DNA from: Actinomycetes bacterium
Lineage (GTDB): Bacteria; Actinomycetota; Acidimicrobiia; Acidimicrobiales; Acidimicrobiaceae
Assembly: GCA_021790855.1 (NCBI GenBank)
Contig: JAJYFP010000037.1
Location: forward strand, 1 to 6,615
DNA: 6,615 bases
Direction of reading: 5' to 3'
In this document: piece after piece, positions 1 through 6,417 of the stretch
Numbering within the stretch: the first letter of the stretch is position 1
Layout of the letters: every line of letters starts with the position of its first letter
The notes under the pieces: model-generated
What the model saw: only the letters and a program-made list of their open reading frames with translations
Databases searched by the model: none
Told to the model about the DNA's origin: nothing
Made by a program: the position numbers and the translations under genes

Positions 1-918
1 CGCATTCAGGTAAGCAGTGATCACATCACCAAGAGCGACGTGCGCACGTTTTTCATCTGGCACAACAGCTCTCTGCGGTCCATTTACGTAAAAGGATGCA
101 GGATCTTGGATAAAGTATTCGTACAAAGAACCGTCTCCAATCGGTCCAATATCCACCGACTTGGACGATCCAACAGTCACCTCCTGCAACGAGGACGTCA
201 CTCTGCCAACCCCTTGAGTTAGGACTTCATGATTACCGTTACAACCCAACCAAGGCATCTTCAGGCCTTCGCTCACTATAGAACTCATGGCGTTTTTCAA
301 GATGCCCTCAACTTGAGGAAAGCCATAGTCGTCCTTGTACATATCCTTTCCAGCTTCAGGTTGCCAGTACTCATATGACTCAAAACTTTGATCTGCAACA
401 AACTCCATCGCATCCGAACCTGACGGAAGGTCGACAGTGCCCCCACCTAGGAGTGTCGATACCCATGAAAACTCATTGGTTTGAGCGTTATCAATTAGAT
501 CGCCCGTGGTAAGAACTACGTCCACCTCTCTTCCAGAGAGTTCAGAGTTCGGAAGTCTGTTTAGAGTTTGAACAAGTTCATAGACCATAGAGTAGATAAG
601 AAACTCCTGCGGGCGGTATCCGGGAACGAGTCCGTCAAAACGCGGGTCGCCAGCGTAACGATTTAGATATTCAAATCTTGAAGGCGACTTTACGTCAGCC
701 AACTGAAAATCGGTCACGTGAACCAAGCGGACTAAAGACTCAAGCGCTCCTTGATCATAGTCACCACTATAGAGTTCACCTCTATGAACTACACCTTCCC
801 CAGCCGATGCCCTAAGGGATCTGAAGTCCCGTTTAAAACCAGGTGATAACGGATCACCAACCTCTATCGACTCCTTCGAAGTAAGTGGGTTTAAGGACTC
901 ACTGCTTCTTCTTTCCAA
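1..918 (-). CDS. PPA1498-type metallophosphoesterase, N-terminal part (runs off the left edge)
   Basis: This open reading frame covers 306 codons from a TTG start at 918-916 to the window edge, with no stop. The calcineurin-like phosphoesterase motifs are visible in order: VHVTDFQLAD (about residues 66-75, the D-x-H position reading D-x-Q), TTGDLIDN (137-144) and GNHE (228-231). These residues would bind the two-metal centre that hydrolyses a phosphoester. The phrases TDFQLADVKSP and RPQE resemble the actinobacterial family TIGR03767 (PPA1498 family), whose substrate I do not know. Members are usually considerably longer, so the C-terminal half is off-window. I see no signal peptide at the N terminus; it begins with a polar stretch. 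TTG is chosen because an in-frame TAG lies three codons upstream and AGGAGG lies 9 nt upstream. The first in-frame ATG comes only after the first metal motif. The gene diverges from the patatin gene across a highly structured intergenic region. Confidence 0.85.
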   Translation of the reverse strand, partial: MERRSSESLNPLTSKESIEVGDPLSPGFKRDFRSLRASAGEGVVHRGELYSGDYDQGALESLVRLVHVTDFQLADVKSPSRFEYLNRYAGDPRFDGLVPGYRPQEFLIYSMVYELVQTLNRLPNSELSGREVDVVLTTGDLIDNAQTNEFSWVSTLLGGGTVDLPSGSDAMEFVADQSFESYEYWQPEAGKDMYKDDYGFPQVEGILKNAMSSIVSEGLKMPWLGCNGNHEVLTQGVGRVTSSLQEVTVGSSKSVDIGPIGDGSLYEYFIQDPASFYVNGPQRAVVPDEKRAHVALGDVITAYLNA

Positions 919-927
919 ATGGAACTA

Positions 928-933
928 CCTCCT
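928..933 (-). promoter_or_regulatory. Shine-Dalgarno AGGAGG of the metallophosphoesterase gene
   Basis: On the minus strand AGGAGG stands 9 nt before TTG at 918. It is a strong ribosome-binding site and decides the non-ATG start. It lies 7 nt from the base of the 940-958 hairpin, so that structure could affect access to it. Confidence 0.7.
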
Positions 934-939
934 CAGTGG

Positions 940-958
940 ATCTATCACAGATATAGAT
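940..958. repeat. Hairpin beside the metallophosphoesterase ribosome-binding site
   Basis: ATCTAT (940-945) is complementary to ATAGAT (953-958), giving a 6-bp stem with a 7-nt loop. Its outer bases 956-958 are also the first three bases of the 956-963 arm of the neighbouring three-way junction. The two structures therefore compete for the same bases. The arrangement sits 7 nt upstream of AGGAGG on the minus strand. The short AT-rich stem alone would be weak. Confidence 0.5.
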
Positions 959-1015
959 TATGCTCCGCCAAACTAGGGGGCGCTAGTTTGGCGGCCGAAT
1001 ACTCGGTGCATAATC
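956..1015. other. Compact three-way-junction structure (candidate structured RNA or DNA element)
   Basis: Sixty consecutive bases fold almost completely. The closing stem is GATTATGC (956-963) with GCATAATC (1008-1015), 8 bp. Inside it are a 12-bp perfect hairpin, CCGCCAAACTAG (965-976) with CTAGTTTGGCGG (983-994) and loop GGGGCG, and directly next to it a 4-bp hairpin, CCGA (995-998) with TCGG (1003-1006) and loop ATAC. Only T964 and T1007 are unpaired outside the loops, so 24 base pairs form from 60 bases. Either strand can fold. On the minus strand the element would lie in the 5' leader of the metallophosphoesterase, ending 38 nt before its start codon, and the large loop would be C-rich (CGCCCC). 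No U-tract follows on either strand, so a simple terminator is unlikely. I do not recognise the family. Confidence 0.6.
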
Positions 1016-1266: not shown

Positions 1267-2298
1267 ATGAAAAGATTCAAGTTCATTCGCACTAACAAAT
1301 CACGGAACCTTAGCGAGGATTGCTCAGAGCCTGGTAAAGCTCCAAAGACTACCTTCGTCCTTGGCGGCGGAGGAGGAAAAGGGGCTTGTCAGGTAGGTAT
1401 GCTCATCGCGCTAATAGAGAAAGGCATCCAAGCGGACGAGGTAATTGGAGTGTCTGTCGGAGCGCTCAATGGAGCCGTGTACGCGAGCCAACCCTCATTA
1501 GATGGTCTTAGGGGTCTTGAAAGTCTTTGGAGTTCTCTCGACAAAGATACAATTATGCCAAAGCGCAAGCTAGGTACCACTTGGAGATATGCACAAAGAG
1601 GAGAGTCTGTTTATCCGGGTGAAGGGTTACGAAAGCTTATCGATTCCCATTTGGACATAGACGACATTGCGGATACAACCATCCCACTTGAAGTGCTCGC
1701 CGCCGACTACACCACAGGCGAAGAGATTTGGTTCGCCTCGGGGCGTCCCCGAGACGTGCTTTATGCCTCAGCGGCAATCCCCGGCGTATTTCCTCCGGTT
1801 CGCTTAGACAATCGATTACTCGTTGATGGAGGAGTAGTAAATGACACACCAATAGACCGAGCGGTAAAAAACGGAGCTACACACATATACATGCTCTTAT
1901 GTGGAACAGCGTTTGCTCATTTACCTGATCCGCAGCGTCCTTTAGAAGCGTTGATTCGATCTGGCACACATACCAAGTCAGCACACTTTCGTAGTCAAGT
2001 CCAGCACCTTCCAAAAGACGTCACGATTACCGTACTTGACTGTCCTGAGGCATCTGGAGTAGAGTCGCTCGACTTCTCGAAAAAAGCTCTGCTTCTTTCC
2101 GCTGGATATCAGCGAACCTTAAGCATCTTAGAAGGCAAAGATTCGGCGTCGTTTGAACCTCCGCCAAGCGAAGCCCATATCAACAAAACTACACAACATA
2201 GTACCGCCGAGCACACGACAAGAGTCAAGGTTGACCGTTGGAGATTTAGATCCGCTTCAAAGATGATCGACTCAAAAACTGTGCCACATCACACGTAG
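1267..2298 (+). CDS. Patatin-like phospholipase (RssA-type serine hydrolase)
   Basis: This 343-residue protein has the full patatin fold signature. The oxyanion-hole loop is LGGGGGKGACQVGM (32-45). The nucleophile elbow is GVSVG (61-65) with Ser63. The partner aspartate is Asp187 in LLVDGG (184-189), completing a Ser-Asp dyad. A conserved SAAIPGVFPPV segment precedes it (168-178). The family hydrolyses acyl esters of phospholipids or other lipids, and the substrate here is unknown. No signal peptide or membrane segment is evident, so it is probably cytoplasmic or membrane-associated. The patatin core seems to end near residue 290, leaving about 50 polar residues rich in His, Thr, Ser and Lys with no recognisable domain. 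ATG 1267 is supported by GAGAGG 8 nt upstream and an in-frame TGA at 1252. The gene stands alone on the plus strand, divergent from the metallophosphoesterase and convergent with the hydrolase. Confidence 0.93.
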   Translation: MKRFKFIRTNKSRNLSEDCSEPGKAPKTTFVLGGGGGKGACQVGMLIALIEKGIQADEVIGVSVGALNGAVYASQPSLDGLRGLESLWSSLDKDTIMPKRKLGTTWRYAQRGESVYPGEGLRKLIDSHLDIDDIADTTIPLEVLAADYTTGEEIWFASGRPRDVLYASAAIPGVFPPVRLDNRLLVDGGVVNDTPIDRAVKNGATHIYMLLCGTAFAHLPDPQRPLEALIRSGTHTKSAHFRSQVQHLPKDVTITVLDCPEASGVESLDFSKKALLLSAGYQRTLSILEGKDSASFEPPPSEAHINKTTQHSTAEHTTRVKVDRWRFRSASKMIDSKTVPHHT

Positions 2299-4500: not shown

Positions 4501-5680
4501 CTCCATCCTCTCTTTTATCTCTAAAGCCAGCCGTTGCCCTGCTTACTATCTCTGAGATCGAAACGGACAGCGTCTTTGCTGCTGTCACTGCATCATCAAA
4601 CTCTACTTTATGACCAAGTCGTGTATATTTCACCTTTACGGTTACGTCTTTAGCTACCTCAATTAGCTCGAAGCCGTGAGGTACAACGTCTCTAGTCACA
4701 GGAACTATCCTCAACCCCGGAGAGCGAGTAACTACGTGAAGACACTCTACTAAAGTAGCAAGGCAGGATACTTTTGTTAGAACTGTAATCTCATATCCCG
4801 GTCTCGACTTCTTCCCCACAACCGGTGTAATCCAAGCGTCCAAAGCTCCTTGCGAGATCGTCTCCTCGACAATAAGTCCAAGCTCCTCTCCAGATAAGTC
4901 GTCGACGTGAACTCCAAGCATGTAGATCTCCTCTCGAACGCCTTCAACTCCTGTATCTTGGAGTAGATAAGCACTGAGTACTCCGGAGACACCTGCTCTA
5001 ACCCTGTGACCAGCACCGTATCCAACACCAACTAGGCTACCGTTTCCTTCACCATAGCGATAGAGTCCAGCTTCACTAAGGATTGCAAGCACGACAGCTG
5101 CAGTAGGTGTGAGGTACTCAAAGGAGTCATCAGTTAAAGTAACCGGCACTGTCGTCCTCTGCAAGAGTTCCGCAACTACGGGAACTGGGTTCGGATATCG
5201 TCCATGAGAGATCTCAATCTGTGAACATCCAAGATGCAACTTAGAACTCGTCATCTCCTGGATGTTTAGTCCATCCAGCAAGCTCAACACCCCTACAACA
5301 TCGACAAAGGTATCGGCAGATCCGAGTTCATGAAGATGCGCATCTTCATGAACTCCATGAATCTTTGCTTCAGCCTCACCTAAGAGATCAAACGCTCTGT
5401 GCGCAAGTTCTTTCACTAGCGAGGTCCCAGAGCTGAGCCGAGTGAGAGCGTCAACCATCTGTTCAAGTGTCATCCTCCGATCGCCACCTGCAATGCTAAC
5501 CTTGGTAGCGGAGAGTGAAGAGCGCTGAACTGACTCAAAAATAACCTTGACATCTACGATCGATGCCACTAATGCTAAAATCTTCTCTGGCTCACTTTGA
5601 TCGACAAAAAGGCCCGACAAGGCAGCAATCAACATATCCCCCGCAGCTCCGTTCGAGAGATCGAGGTGGAGTTTTCTCAA
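4490..5680 (-). CDS. larC: LarC, nickel-pincer cofactor biosynthesis protein (nickel insertion, single-frame form)
   Basis: This 396-residue protein matches LarC (DUF111), the cyclometallase that inserts nickel into the pyridinium dithiodicarboxylate nucleotide in a CTP-dependent step. The N-terminal LDLSNGAAGDM (6-16) corresponds to the family's LDxFSGxSGDM. HLHELGSADTFVD (115-127) matches the HFHEVGAxDxxxD motif. NPVPVVAELL (164-173), TPTAAV (191-196) and GYGAGHR (220-226) follow. The C-terminal LarC2 part begins around VHVDDLSGEELG (257-268) and continues through GALDAWITPVVGKKSRPG (278-295). Both halves lie in one frame, unlike Lactiplantibacillus plantarum, where a programmed frameshift joins larC1 and larC2. 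The start is TTG at 5680, overlapping the larB stop as TTGA, with GAGG 7 nt upstream. That region can fold into a start-occluding hairpin (separate entry). Codons 109-119 form a 32-nt perfect palindrome. The three residues of the second His-rich cluster usually seen before HFHE are mostly absent here (HEDAHLHE). Confidence 0.93.
   Translation of the reverse strand: MRKLHLDLSNGAAGDMLIAALSGLFVDQSEPEKILALVASIVDVKVIFESVQRSSLSATKVSIAGGDRRMTLEQMVDALTRLSSGTSLVKELAHRAFDLLGEAEAKIHGVHEDAHLHELGSADTFVDVVGVLSLLDGLNIQEMTSSKLHLGCSQIEISHGRYPNPVPVVAELLQRTTVPVTLTDDSFEYLTPTAAVVLAILSEAGLYRYGEGNGSLVGVGYGAGHRVRAGVSGVLSAYLLQDTGVEGVREEIYMLGVHVDDLSGEELGLIVEETISQGALDAWITPVVGKKSRPGYEITVLTKVSCLATLVECLHVVTRSPGLRIVPVTRDVVPHGFELIEVAKDVTVKVKYTRLGHKVEFDDAVTAAKTLSVSISEIVSRATAGFRDKREDGDEI
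5324..5355. repeat. 32-nt perfect palindrome inside larC
   Basis: GAGTTCATGAAGATGC (5324-5339) is followed without spacer by its exact reverse complement GCATCTTCATGAACTC (5340-5355). It encodes LarC residues 109-119 (G-V-H-E-D-A-H-L-H-E-L), which include the conserved HxHE motif. Compared with what I recall of the family there is no inserted sequence, so the symmetry occupies ordinary coding positions. Confidence 0.9.
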
Positions 5681-5694: not shown

Positions 5695-6417
5695 AATGGG
5701 ACTCGAACTTACTCTACTCGCCACCCTAAATGCTGCACATGCTGCTCCAAAACCGTTGTCTATACCCATCACAGAAACTCCTTGAGCACACGAAGCTGTC
5801 ATCGCTAAAAGTGCAGTCAAACCATCGAAGGAAGACCCGTATCCTGCCGAAGTAGGAACTGCAACTATCGGTTGCGGAAGGAGACCACCAACTACCGAGG
5901 CTAACGCACCCTCCATTCCAGCTACCACGACCACCACGTCAAAGTCATAGAGCTCAGGAAGTATCTCTAAGATACGGTCAACGTGTGCAACCCCCACGTC
6001 CGCATAGACCTTAGCGTTAATACCAAGAGCAAAAAGCGTGCCTTTACATTCATATGCTACCCTCAAGTCAGAGGTCCCCGCGGTAAGGATGACTACCTCT
6101 GAAGGGATCGGCGTGGGCTCGCCTATTACAACTGCTCTATAGCTTGCCTCAGATCTCAGATCAGGAAAGACATTGATGCTATCCGCTTCAACATCGTCAA
6201 TCGCTTTGATCTCATTAACCACGTCATCTGTACAGCGTGTAACAATAACAGGGTCACCACTACTCAAGAGGTGGTGACGAACGATCGCCACCACCTCTTG
6301 AGTAGTCTTTGACTGTGCATAGATTGCTTCGGGCATACCCAGCCGTTGTTTGCGGGCTAGATCAACCCTCGCCACTACATCCCGACTTGTACTAATAGAA
6401 AGACCTTCGTAGTTCAT
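5677..6417 (-). CDS. larB: LarB, nickel-pincer cofactor biosynthesis protein (NaAD carboxylase/hydrolase)
   Basis: This 246-residue protein, the usual length, matches LarB. The enzyme carboxylates C5 of the pyridinium ring of nicotinic acid adenine dinucleotide and hydrolyses the phosphoanhydride, the first step of NPN cofactor synthesis. The N-terminal segment ARVDLARKQRLGMPEAIYA (16-34) is the typical LarB lead-in. The C-terminal half is PurE/AIR-carboxylase-like: LTAGTSDLRVA (111-121), DVGVAHVDRI (140-149), VVAGMEGALASVVGGL (164-179), VPTSAGYGSSFDGL (187-200) and IDNGFGA (219-225). Cys210 in MTASCAQGV sits where, as I recall, LarB has the cysteine that bonds covalently to the pyridinium ring. 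ATG 6417 gives a full-length family N terminus, but its ribosome-binding site is poor: AGAGAG directly abuts the ATG, and AGG is about 9 nt away beside a small hairpin. It is the first gene of the larB-larC-aldo/keto reductase cluster. It contains an 18-bp perfect inverted repeat. Confidence 0.94.
   Translation of the reverse strand: MNYEGLSISTSRDVVARVDLARKQRLGMPEAIYAQSKTTQEVVAIVRHHLLSSGDPVIVTRCTDDVVNEIKAIDDVEADSINVFPDLRSEASYRAVVIGEPTPIPSEVVILTAGTSDLRVAYECKGTLFALGINAKVYADVGVAHVDRILEILPELYDFDVVVVVAGMEGALASVVGGLLPQPIVAVPTSAGYGSSFDGLTALLAMTASCAQGVSVMGIDNGFGAACAAFRVASRVSSSPIIEALS
6259..6306. repeat. 18-bp perfect inverted repeat inside larB
   Basis: ACTACTCAAGAGGTGGTG (6259-6276) is the exact reverse complement of CACCACCTCTTGAGTAGT (6289-6306). 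The 12-nt spacer can add CGA/TCG pairs (6278-6280/6285-6287) after one A/C mismatch, leaving a 4-nt loop. On the coding strand the arms are exactly six codons each, in frame: residues T38-V43 (TTQEVV) and H48-S53 (HHLLSS). The surrounding protein aligns with LarB without an obvious insertion. Confidence 0.92.

Follow-up and report, generated by a model that had tools for sequence, protein, structure and literature searches.

A probable structured 5′ leader with repeated C-rich loops upstream of a metallophosphoesterase gene in an uncultured actinobacterial clade

In the window (the whole 6,615-nt stretch of DNA that was analysed), the minus-strand metallophosphoesterase gene is preceded by three adjacent modules at 956-1073: a hairpin (A), a palindromic hairpin (B) and a three-way junction (3WJ). 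We favour, with moderate confidence, the reading that they give the phosphoesterase mRNA a structured 5′ leader, whose C-rich loops would dock a partner acting in trans. Since related species retain this shape although much of the sequence differs, the leader is probably an undescribed, narrowly distributed cis-acting RNA element controlling this gene. The leader itself is well supported, whereas the partner and the direction of control are what we infer from it.

Architecture and gene context

Read along the minus strand, module A (1046-1073) is predicted to fold into an 11-bp hairpin with loop UGCCCC; module B (1018-1041) is a perfect 24-base palindrome, GGTTCCAAATCTAGATTTGGAACC, forming a 10-bp hairpin; and the 3′-most module, C, is the 3WJ (956-1015), for which folding, the covariance models (R1) and compensatory changes all speak. 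Spacers are short, 4 nt between A and B and 2 nt between B and the 3WJ. Within the junction, the 8-bp closing stem P1 (1008-1015 with 956-963) encloses the 4-bp hairpin P2 (1003-1006 with 995-998) and P3, a perfect 12-bp hairpin (983-994 with 965-976) with loop CGCCCC at 977-982. The loop motif of hairpin A is the same as that of P3, and hairpin A also weakly matches positions 25-48 of model R1 (16.2 bits, E 0.038).

A preliminary description of this DNA had drawn the 60-nt junction with an 8-bp closing stem, a 12-bp perfect hairpin and an abutting 4-bp hairpin. Folding confirmed that structure, including the two lone unpaired bases outside the loops, which lie at positions 964 and 1007. The fold had also been called unexpected by chance, and on neither strand did any of 200 shuffles fold as well: the minus strand of 956-1015 gives -31.9 kcal/mol (z -7.4) and the plus strand -32.3 kcal/mol (z -6.0). 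The 126-nt stretch 953-1078 reaches -61.3 kcal/mol (z -8.3), again with 0/200 shuffles as good.

The gene itself (1-918, minus strand) is TIGR03767-like and starts with TTG at 918, so that its 5′ 306 codons lie in the window. From the 3′ end of the leader, which is that of the 3WJ, to this start codon there are 37 nt; the preliminary description placed the junction correctly before the phosphoesterase start, with the spacing one too long at 38 nt. A conserved GGAGGT lies between the two, within a Shine-Dalgarno-like GAGGAGGT (927-934, minus strand) whose AGGAGGTAG is invariant in four genus members, and the ribosome-binding site is thus outside the stable hairpins and downstream of them. The element had been described as lacking a terminator U-tract, and a terminator-like site was indeed not found in 900-1280. 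The full-length phosphoesterases of three relatives (G022, G023 and G030) are calcineurin-like (PF00149) and closest to TIGR03767, with scores of 282-295 bits that fall under the cut-off of 330.75. For a TIGR03767 enzyme of Cutibacterium, one study hypothesises a part in scavenging organic phosphate (PMC9723661).

On the other side of the leader, a divergent gene for a patatin-like phospholipase (1267-2298, plus strand) is a neighbour in 4/4 genus members. In G030, the 3.8-kb locus that contains the copy gave no match to it and has an Abhydrolase_3 gene upstream instead, and we therefore assign the RNA to the phosphoesterase. The window genome is a 1.5-Mb assembly of 157 contigs, 76.7% complete. 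In the own assembly as searched, the contig ends at window position 786 (window 1-785 lying outside it), and it therefore carries 44 phosphoesterase codons, against 306 in the window.

Conservation, strand and distribution

The search of related genomes for the 3WJ fold found copies in G022, G023, G024 and G030. With BLAST and patterns, the 3WJ was located directly upstream of the orthologous metallophosphoesterase in all four genomes of the genus set (the window genome, G022, G023 and G024) and in G030, which belongs to another genus and is the only sampled genome of that genus. All five known copies have the same sense and a similar place before the gene, 35-46 nt from 3WJ to start codon (taking as the G030 start an assumed ATG after GGGGAGAGG). 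Model R1, built from the four genus copies alone with G030 excluded, scored the G030 copy at 38.8 bits (E 1e-8).

Across this sample of five sequences, four of them from one genus, 98.3% of the cells in the 3WJ stems are paired and 5/24 pairs show double changes, a result equalled by 0/500 shuffles. All five double-changed pairs are in P3, as are both unpaired cells. P1 and P2 have one-side changes only and zero double changes; the case for their pairing is made by these changes and by invariant sequence. For the entire leader in the four genus sequences, 96.1% of cells are paired and double changes occur in 12/45 pairs (4 in A, 5 in B and 3 in P3); shuffles average 4.0 and slid controls give 0-3. 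Support is lowest for hairpin B, with 85% of cells paired in a sequence-driven alignment; the other three members of the genus are predicted to form a hairpin there, from an imperfect palindrome. Preservation of the stems by compensatory change had been set beforehand as the test of the fold: such changes were found in A, B and P3, while variation in P1 and P2 is too slight for a verdict.

The closing stem GRTTATGC/GCATAATC is unchanged while the stems of A, B and P3 vary; P3 reads CCGCCAAACTAG in three copies, CCGCCAGAGGAG in G024 and CGCCGCACCG in G030. Despite these changing stems, YGCCCC is at the loop of A in 4/4 copies (the G024 loop having seven bases) and at that of P3 in 5/5 (the G030 fold pairing its last C). 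A hairpin A with GCCCC was not seen in G030, where the P2 loop is CCCCCA. The second C-rich loop of that genome thus lies in the junction and not in a separate hairpin, which may, on a more tentative reading, mean that selection acts on the number of C-rich loops and not on their address.

Wobble pairs carry the strand signal. Predicted hairpins hold 20 G-U pairs when read on the minus strand and 2 on the plus strand, and the minus-strand fold is better in 11/13 hairpin or junction sequences, with one tie and one slightly better on the plus strand. The tie and the exception both belong to the window's own copy, whose 3WJ and hairpin B have zero G-U pairs and are uninformative on strand, so the signal comes from the window's hairpin A and from the relatives. 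With nearly all G-U pairs in the minus-strand reading, the predicted folds point to an RNA of the same sense as the phosphoesterase message as most likely the selected molecule.

The own assembly, 76.7% complete, has the element at one place (74/74 candidates scored), and a BLAST search with 146 bases gave three matches there, all at that single place. Among 42 family genomes, R1 found the four genus members and two matches at E 0.44-0.48, and a pattern search returned 23 rows: four hold the element, and inspection by eye removed the remaining 19. Model R2, run on 38 family genomes, found the own copy and G030, then six matches at E 0.2-0.9. In 397 order genomes, nine R1 matches had E<=0.05, two of the genus and seven others (E 0.005-0.05) that we take as chance; a stricter pattern on the same genomes returned G024 and one match in which no junction could be seen by eye. 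In 296 class genomes, R2 gave two of the genus and G578 (E 0.006), whose sequence does not fold into the junction. Seven stretches from viral_contigs fit a loose pattern, and the best (R2 16.7 bits, E 0.05) was likewise taken as chance. No convincing copy outside the genus and G030 was therefore found in the family, order and class samples, by searches that can miss copies: candidates scored per genome numbered 13 (R1, order), 18 (R2, class), 130 (R1, family) and at most 144 (R2, family), and given this partial scoring, and an R1 family search that missed the G030 copy, absence elsewhere is not proven.

The gene is more widespread than the leader, with a phosphoesterase match in 26/42 family genomes and 58/397 order genomes. 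R2 found no copy in 20 phosphoesterase loci of other family genera (G030 serving as control; L058, a broken match of G006, omitted), which implies that the gene does not need the leader. Nor did it find one in 20 order-level loci (12 + 8), a set that omits nine loci belonging to G024 or to genes already in the family set, further matches being without a locus. The best R2 score over both sets, in which some loci have little upstream sequence, was 15.8 bits (E 0.06).

Several other repeats were noted along the way. G022 (L033:1313-1428) carries a second copy of hairpin B together with the junction's 5′ half, as a direct duplication with a period of 57; coverage of the public counterpart contig, L059, is only 1.7, so the duplication may be an assembly artefact. 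The most stable 60-nt minus-strand fold found in the window (in steps of 5) is a near-perfect 22-nt inverted repeat at 6259-6306, inside a larB-like (AIRC domain) frame, kept in G022 (-34.8 kcal/mol) and lost in G023. A perfect 32-base palindrome at 5324-5355, over a histidine-rich stretch of a larC-like (Ni_insertion) frame, is kept in neither. A 67-bp element, GTTATGCGAAGY...ACTTCGCATAA, occurs at seven places (L078, L082, L091, L093, L094, L098 and L100) in four genomes of other family genera, and adjacent reading frames in L078, L082 and L093 match domains of group II intron reverse transcriptases or of transposases; we took the element as unrelated to the leader.

Known RNAs and rival explanations

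The Rfam scan proposed in the preliminary description was run over 4227 families; the window had no match at E<=5 and the loci of the four relatives none at E<=10. Three matches on 171 bases (E 2.6-7.5) were taken as chance and belong to families other than mini-ykkC/guanidine-II. Judged by titles, no publication found names this element, and none concerns leader RNAs in this uncultured actinobacterial clade. Like mini-ykkC/guanidine-II, the leader has two adjacent hairpins sharing one conserved loop; that loop is ACGR in mini-ykkC/guanidine-II and YGCCCC here. GCATAA resembles a dif arm, an idea abandoned because a second arm was lacking.

The nearest likeness in design is to 6C RNA. Its loops are runs of about six C, a type not seen here, where the motif is YGCCCC in both A and P3. 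The 6C model (RF01066) matched 0/42 family genomes at E<=0.01, with a sensitivity that is modest, as the model rang in 1/14 known genomes and in 0 over the cut-off. The leader further differs from 6C RNA by its three-way junction and its third hairpin, and in preceding one gene without a terminator-like site. Still, 6C RNA (B11 in mycobacteria) is likewise an actinobacterial RNA whose hairpins display C-rich loops, as two studies describe (PMC10470900, PMC9569102). By model or loop our leader is not a 6C member, yet by analogy it may work like one.

A free-standing small RNA, transcribed in the same direction and using its C-rich loops on targets in trans as 6C/B11 does, was among the options first offered for this locus. 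Two C-rich loops would suit it, repression by B11 having been tested via that RNA's pair of C-rich loops and a G tract of the target leader (PMC10470900). We nevertheless hold it to be improbable, given the failure to find a terminator-like site in 900-1280, the spacing of 35-46 nt from the start codon across five genomes and the silence of the 6C model. The same list had included a DNA-level element, and an operator palindrome, REP or MITE would account for the perfect palindrome of module B and for junction ends inverted over 8 bp; REP/MITE hairpins are also compact inverted repeats within an intergenic gap. The wobble asymmetry (20:2 to one strand) largely refutes this reading. The element has a single place in its own assembly and a fixed position, selection appears to be in the RNA sense, and the relatives keep the hairpin and not the perfect palindrome. 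We give it very little credence. The third option, a cis-acting leader, is the one supported, by the orthologous position in five genomes, the compensatory changes and the mRNA-sense G-U bias.

A leader could nonetheless act without docking anything. Very stable consecutive hairpins upstream of the ribosome-binding site, at or near the 5′ end, might passively prolong the life of the message without any partner. Such a stabiliser needs no fixed letters, yet YGCCCC and the closing stem are kept while other stems change, and we regard it as unlikely, if the least so of these rivals. Somewhat less credible is a metabolite riboswitch, with the junction serving as an aptamer of a hitherto undescribed class. 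A compact junction with a closing helix that is sequence-fixed across two genera, and no Rfam family to claim it, would be in keeping with that, but the junction strands of the genus copies are 0-1 nt and thus leave little room for a pocket; a riboswitch is also at odds with an element seen before one gene only and with no terminator-like site.

Proposed mechanism and meaning

For the partner-docking leader that we prefer, transcription would start just beyond about 1073; no sigma-70-like promoter was found for it. The fixed parts are the twice-shown loop motif and the closing helix, and we therefore read hairpins A and P3 as rigid presenters of the C-rich loop YGCCCC, and the 3WJ with its sequence-fixed P1 as a frame that would set their geometry. 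With C-rich loops placed in cis on the mRNA, natural partners, by analogy, would be a G-rich RNA or an RNA-binding protein, whose docking on the leader might alter translation or lifetime of the phosphoesterase message, in a direction at which we can only guess. Neither the leader nor the early part of the coding region showed a G-rich partner shared by all five. Pairing of a loop with the Shine-Dalgarno sequence was considered and set aside, being possible in G030 (CUCCCC/GGGGAG) and, by eye, missing in the genus members. More tentatively, and with doubt outweighing belief, the leader could represent a new class of leader RNA, with repeated C-rich loops, one of them in a three-way junction, that senses an RNA or protein partner on behalf of the phosphoesterase.

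The leader adds a covariation-supported RNA motif, without an Rfam family match, in an uncultured actinobacterial clade. If its loops are docking sites, it would be a cis version of a design known from trans-acting actinobacterial small RNAs, and would connect a regulatory input with a phosphoesterase family that has received little study.
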